Below, piece after piece: positions 28,428-33,851 of a stretch of DNA of 64,000 nucleotides. Source of the DNA: Crambe crambe (taxonomy: Eukaryota > Porifera > Demospongiae > Poecilosclerida > Crambeidae); the NCBI GenBank assembly GCA_963924555.1, contig OZ004585.1:7828556-7892555 (forward strand), in the 5' to 3' direction. The notes beneath the pieces were generated by a model. It did no database searches. It had not been told where the DNA came from and was given only the letters and a program-made list of their open reading frames with translations. The stretch's first letter is position 1; each line of letters begins with the position of its first letter. The translations under genes and the position numbers were made by a program.

Positions 28428-29203
28428 GAGAGCCACAAAGCCATGACTGCAGGAAGAGCAAAGTCTCTATTGCTAGTTAGATTGACAGAATCGTTGATAA
28501 CATGATGAATTTCAGATCTTTAGTCTTCTATATAGCTTCTGTATCTATACACCTGCAAAAAAAATTTTCATCAGTAGAATAGCTCTATAATAAATGCTTG
28601 GTGCATATCAAGTCTTATGTGCTGAGGCATCACACTTGTTAGTTTTGTGTACTTTCCAGTCACACGTACATGCAATAGAAGAAAGTGCTGCTGCTGGAAG
28701 TGGAAGGAGAGCACTATTTGCATCATTACTTACATATTGGAACATGCATGGAAGTGTACATAGCTGGTTCTCAGTATAAATTAGGATGAGCCTTTTATTG
28801 AGGGGATTTCCCTGGGGAAAACCAACACATCCAGACTGATAGACATGAAATGATTCACCTCGATGTTGTGAAGTGGATCCTTTTGCCAGTGTACCAATAG
28901 TACTGCTAAAATCAAAGGCTATTCCTTTCTCGCGACTTACTAAAATAAGATTTACTATAATGACGATGTAATATCAATATGCTGTCTTACTCTGTCGAGC
29001 TAGGTCCCGTTCTCCAACAGCTTTGGCACATAGAGCAGTTAGTAGGGTCTTCCATGACGGTTCAGGGATGACGGACTTTAGCCACTCTATGAGCATCTCA
29101 CAGAGACACGGTGGCGGATCGTCACGATACTGCATTTTAATCCTTTTCAAAGTTCCCACCTTGAACTTTAACTCTATCCCTATGTCATACCACTTCGCGC
29201 TAG

Positions 29204-29322
29204 TACGGTGGCCGAGAAGGGTCATGTCGCTCTGCCGACATAGCGGCCGCGCGGTACTTGAGCGGCCGATCGGCCGATCGAGCGGTGACGGCTAATTGGA
29301 GAGAAATTTTTAAATATTGCAA
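29204..29322. repeat. Left terminal inverted repeat of the transposon
   Basis: It is GC-rich, including a palindromic GATCGGCCGATC core. It matches 33643-33761 in inverted orientation. Read outward on the minus strand, it supplies an ATG at 29225 in frame with the downstream Death-domain half (MTLLGHRT, then SAKWYD). Confidence 0.9.
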
Positions 29323-29359
29323 CCACGTGTTCACAATCAGCTCGCTTTATGCTGTATTG

Positions 29360-31540
29360 ATGGCAGACTCACACTCTCTTGGATCACTGCTACTAGAGAT
29401 GAGCCAGGTGCTACACGACAAGGCAAAATCATTAAAAGCTTCTAAGTCAAAGAAAGTCAGGTCTGTTGGCTCGGATGACACTTCTGAAGACGAGAGAGAA
29501 GGTCAGTTATATTATAGCTAGTTGTGGGGAAGATTTTACTTTAAAATGAAGGTGTGTACTTTAAGTTGTCTTGATGAAGGTTTGTGTATCTGTGTAGCTA
29601 AGTCTGTGAACTTCATTAATTTTGTTATGGACATTTCTAGAATTTTTCATACAGTGTGTAAGTCCAGCGCTAGTGATTGTTGAAAACTTCCTTGATGCAG
29701 TGACACTATATTGTGTATCATCTACGCATGCTGGCTCACAGTATACTTGGTCTACCATAGTTGGAGAGCCTATGGAATTCCCCTCAACCCCTGTTATTTA
29801 TGTGAATAAAGGGGGTCTATACCAATGTATTGTCAAGTTCAAAGAAAAGGAAATCAAAGGGAAATTAGTGACTATTTGTGTTGATGTTGGTATGTTGTGT
29901 GATTATACTGCAGAAGTATTATTCAGTTAAGTGTTGCTCTTGCTTTTTAGCATCTCCTCAATCTTCCAGTACTGAAAAAAGACACCGTGTGCATGATGGC
30001 CCCCCTTCCAGTAGAGAGCACCTGAGGGGAACTCCCCAACAGGGTCCCAGTGTTAGTGTCAGTGCAGATTCTGCTGTATCCAGTGCTGGATCGAGTTATG
30101 TGGCTTCCACAAAAGTGTCAGTTCCTTCCACAAAGGTGCCAATCTTAGCCACTCAAACACCTTGCACTTCCAGTCTAGACTCCTGTCAAGGTGCACAAGT
30201 TATTTTTTCATTGCACAACTGTGTAGTCCTGGATTTCTCAGAGAGCGAGATTTCTAGTGCAACAAGTGGTTATGCACAAGAGAGATTGTTGGGCAGTGGA
30301 GGGTTTAGTGTTGTCTATAAAGGTATCCTCAATGGTTCATATGTTGCCATCAAGAAATTAACTGAGGTAATTCTAATAGTTATAATAATAGTGCTTTCAA
30401 TTGGTCACTTTCAGGATGGTGCATTAGCTCTTGCTGGTGGTCAGGAAAAGAAGTTACCAGATTCATTCACTCTCTCTGGCCTACTTGCCAGTGAAATCAG
30501 AGCCCTGACAAGGTATAGATAGTAATGCCATAGATACATAGTTTAAATTTTGGTAGTTACTGCTTACAGATGCCGCCATCGCAATTTAGTGGACTTGATG
30601 GGATTTTGCCTTTCTCCTCCTATGTTGGTATATGAATATATGGAGCGGGGAAATCTTTATGATCAAATTTTTAACAAGGTATAGTTTCAAAGTCATAGAT
30701 TTGAAGCTAATTTAATCACTACAGAAAGCTCAACCTGGCGACAAAGATCTGTGATTTTGAAGGATGTCTGTCGTGGTTTGTTATGGCTTCATGGTGCCAA
30801 TCCCCAAGTAGTTCATGGAGATATTAAAGCGTATGTGGACTCTATTACTCATTGTAATATTGCATTCATATTCTCTATCCAGGGCCAATATACTCCTGGA
30901 TCAGCATTTGACTGCAAAACTGGGGGACTTTGGGTTCACCAGAGAATTTTCTCAGGTCGTTGGAGGGCGAACCATGATAACTGTACCAGTAGTGGCCAAG
31001 TCATTGGGGTACTACCCTCCAGAAATGGATACTTGCCACTTATCACCAAAGAGTGATGTTTTTTCTTATGGTGTTGTGAGTTAATAATGAAAATAGCTTA
31101 TTATTATACATGCATTCTTATTCATTTAGGTAGCTCTGGAAACATTTAGTGGACAGGAAGCCTATGACAAGGGAAGGGTTGATCCACTTCTGGTAAGTCC
31201 ATCTTATCCCAAATATGCACAATAGTAGTTAGGTGGACAGGAATTCTGTTTGTGTTCTGGTACTTAGTCTAACCATACAATAATTATGGCTAAGGCTCAC
31301 CCCACAATGCTAATTTTGTCCAGACCGAGCATCTTGAAGCCAGAAAGAGTGTGAATGGGTACAAGAGCGTGGCTGATCCAAAGGCTGGTGAGCTGCCACA
31401 CTACCTGCTTCTTCTCTATTATAAAATTATAGAGCAGAGCCTCTTGAAACACAGCAAACGTCCTTCATCTAAAATGGTAAACCTTTGTACTCTGTTCTAG
31501 ATAATAATAATAATTTCAATTATTGTAGTTGATGCAGTGA
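29360..31540 (+). CDS. Ig-domain IRAK/Pelle-like protein kinase, inside the transposon
   Basis: Exons: 29360-29501, 29641-29889, 29951-30366, 30415-30512, 30570-30678, 30725-30830, 30883-31075, 31130-31192, 31324-31476, 31529-31540. The N-terminal coil ([16 protein letters not shown]) starts 38 bp inside the left inverted repeat. An Ig-like domain follows (about residues 48-130, closing GGLYQC), then a Ser/Thr/Pro-rich linker. The kinase domain has [13 protein letters not shown], the VAIKKL lysine, [23 protein letters not shown] (HGD instead of HRD, as in IRAK/Pelle and plant receptor-like kinases), DFGF and SDVFSYGV. Catalytic Lys, Asp and Asn and the DFG are present, so it looks active. Phases agree at every junction except exon 5 to 6, where one nucleotide is missing (total 1541 nt). 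It lacks the Death domain usual in IRAKs. Confidence 0.75.
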
Positions 31541-31669
31541 TGGTGTGAAACAAACTTCTAGTATCTCTACCATTATAAAACTCTTTCAAAACAGTATAGC
31601 TAAAAATTCTGTATCAGATTCATCATAAACTTTGTGTTGTACTGTAAGAAATTTAGAATAAATCATCTG

Positions 31670-33500
31670 CTACCAAAGTTCAATGTGGTGAACTAGTTTG
31701 ATATAAACATTCCGACAGTTATTGTGAGTGATATCACCCTCACTCAAGTGCAATTCAGTCTCCAGAGCCCTTCTTGCAACGGTCCTAAAGAAATTTGGAC
31801 ACAGCAATGGTGCAGGCTTTGACTCTAGCATACTCTCTGCCCACAGGCTACAATCAATGGATTGTAGCTGGTCTTCTGAGCCTTGAAACAAAAAATGGTT
31901 ACCAATGAAACTAAACTCAAAGCAGCAGACATACCATACAAGTCTGGCATATCATAGATGTCAATGGGACGGCCATGTGGAGTGTCTACAGTATGATTCT
32001 TTCTTATAGGATGATTATTCCAATCTCTGGCAAAAGCTTCCAAATCTTTATGTAAAAGGTTTCCAAACACATAACCCAAGGTATATCTGGAGTTAAAAAA
32101 TGAAACCCAGCTATAGAAAGACTTCTTGATAGCAACCTGTGAGTATCATTGCTCTTGTCGAATAGTCCGTCTGTCAGAAGGTCCTTAATCATAAGCAAGA
32201 CAATCAGCAAAAGATCTCCCACTAGCTAACCTGTATACCTACCCTGCACAATGTTATCCACCAATCTGTTTTAAATCTCCTCAACTGGGCCCAAAGAGAC
32301 TCGATTCTCTAATAAGATACTGTAATTACTATGTGGATCCTTTTGTAATATTAACTTACAGTATTAGATGTTGATGGTCCATATATAAAAATCTTACAAC
32401 CGGCCAGTGAATCATTATGGTTCATTCGGAATGCTAAGTGAACTTTAGCAAGTTTGCAATTCTCAGTTCCGCAATCACATCGCACAACTTTAGGACAGCC
32501 TAGTCAAATACAGCTAGTTTATTCATGCAACCAAGCATTTGTACCTTAATATACCTCCACAGCTCTCCACATATTCTAAATAATATTGTGAAATCACCCT
32601 CGGGTCTCGATTTGTTGAGGACAGTTTCAGCCATAAAATCTTCCTGGAAAACCTAATGGATACATGAACAGTAGTACCAAGACTACTAAGATATTAAAAC
32701 AAGCATCAAAACATACCCATCAATGCAACCATGAATGGAGAGTCCATATGGAGTGAGCTTATCATAACCATCAACATGCCATAATTGATTAGGTCCCTAG
32801 TTATAACAGCTATATTTAATAATCCATAAAATGATTATGGCTAGCTCATTAACCTTGCACTTATATGATCTTCTTTTCAGGCGCCTGCTCTTCCTCTGCT
32901 CTACTCCCTCTGGATCCAATTGTCTCAGTAGCTGCATAACTGTATCTCTATGATCAATAATTGCTAGATTCTATGAGGTTCTTTAATTAAAGGAAATAGT
33001 CATAAACCTTCTCAATATTATCTTATATTAAATTTTAGTCCTGAGTATCCTCCACAATGCTCGATAGCCACACAACTTATCAGGGGACCGCAATAGAAGC
33101 TAGAACACATTACCATTTCATTTTAACACAACTTTACACCAATAATAATCATAAGAACTTGAATTAGAGCTTTAAGAGTATCTTCTGGTGGATCGGTAGT
33201 GCGTCTCTTAAGCCCTAGCTTTCGAAACTGCCGTTTTAACCAGGACATACTGTAAGTGGAAAAATGCAAACTCAATACATAGCAGGCAGTGGTAGTGTGC
33301 TTATAGCACTCATTTATGCTCTCCTTTAGTGTGCCACTTCATCAAGGATCTAGAACCCTGTAAACCCATCTACGATATGCTAGTGCTTGTAAAAAGATCT
33401 ATGACTATGGCTGCTTCATCTATATGCCATGCCATACCTTTTTGTGACTCCATGTACCAAACATAATCTTTCAAGAATTACTCTGTACGGCCTTCCAGTA
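31670..33500 (-). CDS. DDE integrase-type transposase of the IS3EU-like element
   Basis: Spliced minus-strand gene; the first exon(s) are unresolved. Conserved blocks in order: PYRVILERLCLVHGV (about 33440-33490); MSWLKRQFRKLGLKRR (33248 down), a helix-turn-helix-like region; LCGYRALWRILR; then WHVDGYDKLTPYG with the first catalytic Asp (about 32710-32795). GCIDG next joins an exon starting FSRKILWL (about 32565-32650). RCDCGTEN carries the second Asp (about 32440-32500). RIESLWAQL carries the Glu (about 32300). The C-terminal block has ARDWNNHPIR and TPHGRPIDIYDMPDLYG, and the gene ends HHIELW with stop at 31670-31672. The order and motifs match the eukaryotic rve-like integrase family seen in animal transposons. 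All three acidic residues are present, so the enzyme may be functional. Confidence 0.8.
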
Positions 33501-33642
33501 TAAAAATATTAAGACTTCTGGTAGGAAATAAACTACCATATCTAATCTAGAAGTCGCCTGCAAACATAGCCTTACCATCTGTTACAGCAGCATTCATTAT
33601 GATAAGCATACAGACACCGTCTATGGTCGCATGCGCATGGTT

Positions 33643-33761
33643 TTGCAGTATTTAAAAATTTCTCTCCAATTAGCCGTCACCGCTCGATCGGCCGATCGGC
33701 CGCTCAAGTACCGCGCGGCCGCTAAGTCGGCAGAGCGACATGACCCTTCTCGGCCACCGTA
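33643..33761. repeat. Right terminal inverted repeat of the transposon
   Basis: Inverted copy of 29204-29322. It abuts the 6-bp duplicate CGCTAG at 33762-33767. The interrupted Death-domain frame reads into it and stops at about 33670. Confidence 0.9.
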
Positions 33762-33851
33762 CGCTAGCATCATGTAAATAATCTCTGACTTCCTTCAGAT
33801 CGTCAATTGTCAGCACCTGCACCATCATGATCGAGGTCTTTGTTTGTTCAT

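Follow-up and report, generated by a model that had tools for sequence, protein, structure and literature searches.

This report concerns a transposon in the sponge Crambe crambe that carries a protein kinase gene beside its own transposase gene. It occupies positions 29204-33761 of a stretch of 64,000 nucleotides, here called the window (GCA_963924555.1, contig OZ004585.1, positions 7,828,556 to 7,892,555; C8:7828556-7892555 in our contig numbering), and relatives were sought in 143.1 Mb of genome sequence. Because four loci carry the same kinase between the same ends, the kinase is supported as mobile cargo of the transposon. The lineage to which the element belongs carries two genes, usually convergent: one for a DDE transposase and one for a kinase in which a conserved but unclassified N-terminal domain and an immunoglobulin (Ig)-like exon precede an IRAK-like catalytic domain.

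The element in the window

The unit at 29204-33761 is a terminal inverted repeat (TIR) transposon of 4558 bp with TACGG..CCGTA ends. A repeat scan of the window found its inverted arms at 29203-29322 and 33643-33762. The TIRs are 119 bp long and identical at 117 of 119 positions, and CGCTAG stands on both sides, in agreement with the 4558-bp unit, 119-bp inverted termini, and perfect 6-bp duplicates described in an initial annotation of this DNA. When the element and one duplicate are removed, the flanks join into one open minus-strand host frame, as expected from the earlier observation that a host exon is split at the element ends. The joined flanks match the Death domain at 20.7 bits, just below the Pfam cut-off of 22.6 (E 4.4e-4). 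Because excision with one duplicate restores an open frame with this sub-threshold match, the element apparently inserted into an exon of the host.

Two spliced genes lie inside, the kinase on the plus strand and the DDE transposase on the minus strand. The kinase gene was modelled with 11 exons from reading frame and splice sites, and its ATG at 29360 is located 37 bases past the end of the left TIR. The features are as follows.

28974..29203, minus: open-frame portion of the interrupted host exon (Death-domain-like), which resumes at 33768
29198..29203, no strand: left target-site duplicate CGCTAG, by flank comparison
29204..29322, no strand: left TIR, 119 bp, starting TACGGTGGCCGAGAAGGG...
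29360..29501, plus: first kinase exon (ATG 29360), by reading frame and splice sites
29641..29889, plus: kinase Ig-like exon (Ig assignment weak)
29951..30190, plus: kinase linker exon
30227..30366, plus: kinase N-lobe exon with glycine-rich loop and VAIKK
30415..30512, plus: kinase exon
30570..30678, plus: kinase exon
30725..30830, plus: kinase exon with HGDIK, frameshifted by the loss of 7 nt that the C9, C19, and C21 copies have
30883..31075, plus: kinase exon with DFG and activation loop
31130..31192, plus: kinase exon
31324..31476, plus: kinase exon
31529..31561, plus: last kinase exon, with a premature stop relative to the other copies
31930..33248, minus: spliced DDE transposase/integrase (rva_4 type), 8 modelled exons
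33159-33248, 33008-33099, 32854-32947, 32717-32796, minus: transposase exons
32555-32652, 32360-32499, 32243-32308, 31930-32183, minus: transposase exons, continued (start of the last exon uncertain)
33643..33761, no strand: right TIR
33762..33767, no strand: right target-site duplicate CGCTAG, by flank comparison

The window copy is damaged and cannot encode an intact kinase as read. Compared with the three other copies described below, 7 nt are missing from its seventh kinase exon (at about 30733) and the stop falls six codons early. In addition, a Gly of the glycine-rich loop has become Ser, and a segment of about 1.1 kb that holds probable upstream exons, present in the C9, C19, and C21 copies, is gone. 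With these lesions the window kinase is not functional as read. Its transposase has one frameshift and one stop relative to the model from the C19 copy, and two of its exons gave weak matches to rva_4. The spliced DDE integrase of the initial annotation is confirmed by the rva_4 match of the spliced C19 copy. The ten-exon Ig-kinase gene proposed there stands as a spliced kinase, although it has 11 modelled exons, is broken, and has an Ig exon that is weakly backed.

Copies, families, and the pairing of two genes

A genome search with the 119-bp terminus, as the initial annotation had suggested, found four loci, each on a separate contig, that have paired ends and the same kinase between them. 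These copies form family A: the window copy on C8, C9:905837-911993, C21:3535464-3541001, and C19:4219953-4225602, whose left TIR is without about its outer 40 bases. Kinase and transposase are present in all four family-A copies examined; kinase-less copies, sought as evidence against a mobile kinase, were not among them. Identity among the C9, C19, and C21 copies is 99.4-99.6%, and the C8 copy is 97.5% identical to each. ATGTTG duplicates flank the C9 copy. The only further terminus matches listed are two 45-base fragments, both on C19, and partial relatives of the family lie at C3:1117011-1118898 and C1:6695320-6696145.

In the C19 copy, every modelled kinase exon is open and the kinase splice sites are canonical; the transposase is also open, with an uncertain junction before its last exon. 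One kinase exon of the C9 copy has a 10-nt deletion, beside an open transposase; in the C21 copy, part of the Ig-like exon is missing and one frameshift is needed to read the transposase. Nested in the right half of the C9 copy, which was read within C9:904837-912993, is an insertion of 492 bp that has inverted ends of its own. The C21 copy is located 110 bp from a terminus of a related family, D, at C21:3535354, so that an older relative may have been its site of insertion or the neighbour of that site.

Protein searches of the sponge's own genome revealed many further kinase-transposase neighbours. The counts of kinase and transposase places given here are among the matches listed, and target-site duplicates, frames, and absence of a kinase were read directly in part of the copies. 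Families B, C, and D have ends that read TATGGAAGCCGAGAAGGGC, TATGGAAGCCGAGAAGTGC, and TATGGTGGCCGAGAAGGG, respectively, and the motif TAYGG.RGCCGAGAAG, common to the ends of the wider lineage, has 171 matches in the genome compared with 0 for a reversed control. When 154 ends were entered for pairing, 53 facing pairs resulted, 29 of at least 4 kb and 24 shorter. Contig C11 holds many unpaired, forward-facing element ends, tens to hundreds of kilobases apart.

Both genes occur in 23 of the 29 longer pairs, including elements of 23.6 kb and 10.4 kb that possibly contain nested insertions, and the two genes are convergent in 22 of these 23. Put differently, 23 of the 26 longer pairs with an intron-bearing transposase match also have the kinase. 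An intron-bearing transposase is located within 10 kb of 30 of 41 kinase places, where about 0.25 would be expected at random, and a kinase is found within 10 kb of 32 of 44 intron-bearing transposase places. Twelve of the 41 kinase places lie outside pairs; a transposase is present within 6 kb of six of them, two of which also have one recognised end. The expectation that the element could spread copies of the kinase is supported by the four family-A loci on four contigs and by the related families.

Among the 24 shorter pairs, five have a kinase fragment and 19 have neither gene. Five short family-D elements of 2.4-2.7 kb with perfect target-site duplicates (L050, L051, L054, L062, and L063) were considered as kinase-only mobile elements. 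This idea was dropped, because they are internal deletions in which exon 1 of the transposase and the C-lobe of the kinase are left. Over 238 codons, L054 differs from the full family-D copy on C20 by 2 synonymous and 0 amino-acid changes. Outside the sponge, 51 pattern matches in viral contigs included no relative, and 47 in bacterial and archaeal genomes included 4 distant relatives at 23-26% identity.

The two genes also appear to share a history. The element-kinase clade splits into families A, F, G, and D and families B, C, E, J, and K, which roughly matches a moderately supported transposase grouping of B, I, and C (83/85) apart from the rest. Between families, the proportion of synonymous differences (pS) in the kinase is 0.72-0.89 and that of nonsynonymous differences (pN) 0.17-0.40 (four pairs, one of partial length); the transposase gives 0.78-0.84 and 0.21-0.31 (three pairs). 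Synonymous sites are therefore near saturation while amino-acid change is limited, and both genes are under strong constraint between families. The signal is mixed among closer copies. Ratios for the kinase are 0.05 for family A versus the C3 relative (58 codons), 0.49 versus the C1 relative (61 codons), 0.34 for E versus J, and 0.79 for F versus G. For the transposase they are 0.17 between the C19 and C8 copies, 0.54 for family A versus C3, and 0.83 between two family-C copies (4 changes).

Affinities of the kinase

In spliced alignments with the family-A kinase, those of the other families show 43-64% identity. Their exon layouts are similar, and the exons of 193 and 63 nt have the same lengths in families A to D, which also retain the catalytic Lys, HxD, and DFG. 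The kinase domain is open in the family-C copy on C5 and the family-D copy on C20, and the transposase is open in the family-A copies on C19 and C9 and the family-C copy on C5. The kinase model of family B needs one frameshift, that of F needs two, and that of G has one stop.

The best PDB match of the family-A and family-D kinases is IRAK4. In the segment aligned with IRAK4, the residue at what we take to be the gatekeeper position is Tyr in families A, B, D, E, and G and Phe in C. A tyrosine gatekeeper is an IRAK-family feature (PMC3498205). A PADLOC scan of the family-D kinase matched 28 defence-kinase models (best mads_6, E 5e-52), which we read as general kinase similarity.

A Pfam scan of the N-terminal pieces of family A found no Death-domain match, and the N-terminal parts of families B, C, and D align with those of family A. 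The segment of about 1.1 kb that the C9, C19, and C21 copies have after the first exon and before the Ig-like one apparently codes for a domain of about 100 residues. Related domains precede the kinase in families B, C, and D, and for the family-A version a Pfam search at E values up to 1 gave no match. The Ig-like exon shares a C/W/YxC pattern with family D and gave a sub-threshold Ig_2 match (E 0.095). A single-sequence AlphaFold model of this exon, with a predicted local distance difference test (pLDDT) value of 45, was too poor to use.

In a kinase tree, ten element-type rows group in a single clade (99/97) that neighbours IRAK4 and is separate from ten further host kinases, which are TKL-type by our own reading. 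Proven cargo makes up only part of these rows. Those for families A to D come from paired elements with a transposase, E from within paired ends, and F and J from places near a transposase; G and K stand alone. Large arrays of other host kinases are present on contigs C3, C9, C12, C13, C14, and C16. A host IRAK-like gene represented by one exon (C19:3866646) falls outside the element-kinase clade (100/99, 92 columns). In this one-exon tree the element kinases, IRAK4, and the host IRAK-like exon group together (99/98) apart from the other host kinases. The top-scoring host match to human IRAK4, at C15:2554633, is 40% identical, and a kinase-only IRAK4 with 40% identity is reported from Amphimedon (PMC3498205).

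The element kinase thus resembles IRAK/Pelle proteins in its catalytic domain, in the closest solved structure (families A and D), and in the Tyr gatekeeper of five families. It differs in having an unclassified N-terminal domain and an Ig-like exon, in residing inside a transposon, and in the lack of a Death domain in family A. We suggest “IRAK-like catalytic domain” as the safe label, since, within the tests made, it is the Death domain on which membership in the IRAK family would fail. Any part played in innate signalling would be conjectural, because no Death domain was found in the N-terminal pieces of family A.

Several diverged families carry orthologues of the kinase, and the host IRAK-like exon that was retrieved lies outside their clade. 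These observations indicate that the gene entered the lineage long ago and that it is an old resident, kept together with the transposase for a long time. The proposal in the initial annotation that the transposon had captured an innate-signalling kinase does not hold as a single capture event for the same two reasons.

Why the lineage may keep a kinase

The transposase of family A (spliced C19 copy) matches the rva_4 profile at E 3.2e-33 and that of family C at 4.1e-30, with weak matches to rve and HTH_21. IS3EU elements have TA..TA termini, usually 6-bp target-site duplicates, and a DDE integrase-type transposase, as described in two papers (PMC10045372, PMC12730594). The sponge elements have TACGG ends in family A and TATGG in families B, C, and D, which fit such termini. 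Matching 6-bp duplicates occur in 8 of 10 copies with both flanks read, including six of six family-D copies in which they are perfect. With TIRs longer than 30 bp (119 bp in the window copy) and a transposase with a DDE integrase core, the lineage fits the published descriptions and is best viewed as IS3EU-like.

A parallel exists in fungi. TET-bearing fungal IS3EU elements have TAYGG..CCRTA ends, 6-bp duplicates, and TIRs longer than 30 bp, and all are described as carrying the TET gene between the transposase and an oppositely oriented alpha-kinase (PMC12730594). The sponge elements share with them these ends, duplicates, and TIR lengths, a DDE transposase, and a kinase oriented opposite to it. 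They differ in their animal host and in the type of kinase, which is an IRAK-like eukaryotic protein kinase; alpha-kinases are not known to be related to it in sequence. No TET/JBP gene turned up in the sponge elements, although no search was aimed at one.

We consider the window unit to be a cut-and-paste DNA transposon of IS3EU-like type, present as a damaged copy, whose lineage keeps a transposase together with a kinase that helps the element, with a probability of about 0.7. The transposase would bind the common end motif and move anything located between two ends, and the kinase would spread along with the DNA so moved. Constraint between families and the parallel with the fungal alpha-kinase suggest that the gene is retained because it is useful to the element. 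Most likely, the kinase would phosphorylate the transposase or a host factor involved in transposition or silencing. The main reason for this view is that a kinase recurring in one superfamily would be expected to serve the element rather than an animal-specific pathway.

Several observations weigh against this reading. Three of the four family-A kinases are broken, and the family-A kinase appears unconstrained between the C19 and C8 copies (pN 0.022, pS 0.017, ratio 1.3). For family C, the best PDB match carries the label ScRIPK, with IRAK1 and IRAK4 behind it, and no branch of the transposase tree reaches the strict support mark. Both genes of the family-D copy on C20, the one exception to convergence, lie on one strand. 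Flanking duplicates mismatch in two of the 10 copies (C21 of family A, and C5, the single family-C copy read). Among the longer pairs, three have a transposase and no kinase match, two have neither gene, and one has the kinase alone; those negative for the kinase may contain diverged versions. Six of the 41 kinase places have neither a paired element nor a transposase within 6 kb, and one of these has one recognised end. Two of the six, C12:3072376 and C9:3378513, correspond to the clade rows G and K, which are without ends or a nearby transposase; all six may be relics or host genes.

Finally, the genome has 36 places with an intronless IS3EU-like transposase, and at none of them is an element-type kinase located within 10 kb. 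At one such locus, L084, no exact 14-base inverted pair frames the gene. These relatives indicate that the kinase is not needed by every lineage, and argue against a superfamily-wide need. They also led us to lower slightly our rating of a broader and still tentative proposal, which we hold to be somewhat doubtful: that animal and fungal IS3EU elements independently gained unrelated kinases, that phosphorylation of the transposase, or of a factor in transposition or silencing, is part of moving or of escaping silencing, and that the IRAK-like kinase is the animal solution, a signalling enzyme belonging to the transposon and a second core gene.

Other explanations must be compared with a kinase that helps its element. 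An unlikely one is that a kinase without a Death domain interferes with the IRAK pathway of the host, acting as a decoy or an antagonist, and shields the element or the host cell. The nearness of the catalytic domain to IRAK4 in families A and D and the lack of a Death domain in the family-A N-terminal part are consistent with such a role, and IRAK members without Death domains are stated to act as antagonists (PMC3498205). Nothing in the analysis ties the kinase to adaptors of the IRAK pathway, however, and its active-site residues are retained. Moreover, fungal IS3EU elements also carry a kinase, yet fungi are not known to have a Toll/IRAK pathway.

It is considerably less probable that the kinase is a passive passenger, a host sequence swept between two ends that hitch-hikes without benefit in the manner of Pack-TIR elements. 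Pack-MULEs and Pack-TIR elements are gene-capturing DNA transposons, and the sponge elements resemble them as TIR elements carrying host-type gene sequence. The broken family-A kinases and the five short family-D elements, whose kinase fragment lies behind transposase exon 1, would suit a passenger. Against this, across families the sponge gene accompanies the element's own transposase and is under constraint; a kinase is present in 23 of 26 transposase-bearing paired elements, and the single host IRAK-like exon examined falls outside the clade. A single recent capture within the family of the window copy would account for a kinase common to all four family-A copies, but we rejected it as very improbable. 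Five further families (B, C, D, E, and I) have related kinases that reside inside paired ends; the exon layouts that were read are similar, and the trees place the host IRAK-like exon outside their clade. An assembly or annotation artefact has a negligible chance: the mixed decay of the copies is all that could speak for it, and the many loci, spread over several contigs, differ in their flanks and target duplicates.

Among the papers listed in the literature searches, from which most subscription titles were missing, none described a DNA transposon bearing an IRAK-like kinase. It is unusual for a lineage of DNA transposons to retain a receptor-type kinase as its second gene. Together with the fungal alpha-kinase parallel, what might have been a one-off curiosity becomes a testable question as to why some transposons retain a kinase. 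For genome annotation, kinase genes of transposons could be miscounted as IRAKs of the host immune system. Such elements also represent a route by which signalling kinases may be copied around an animal genome.

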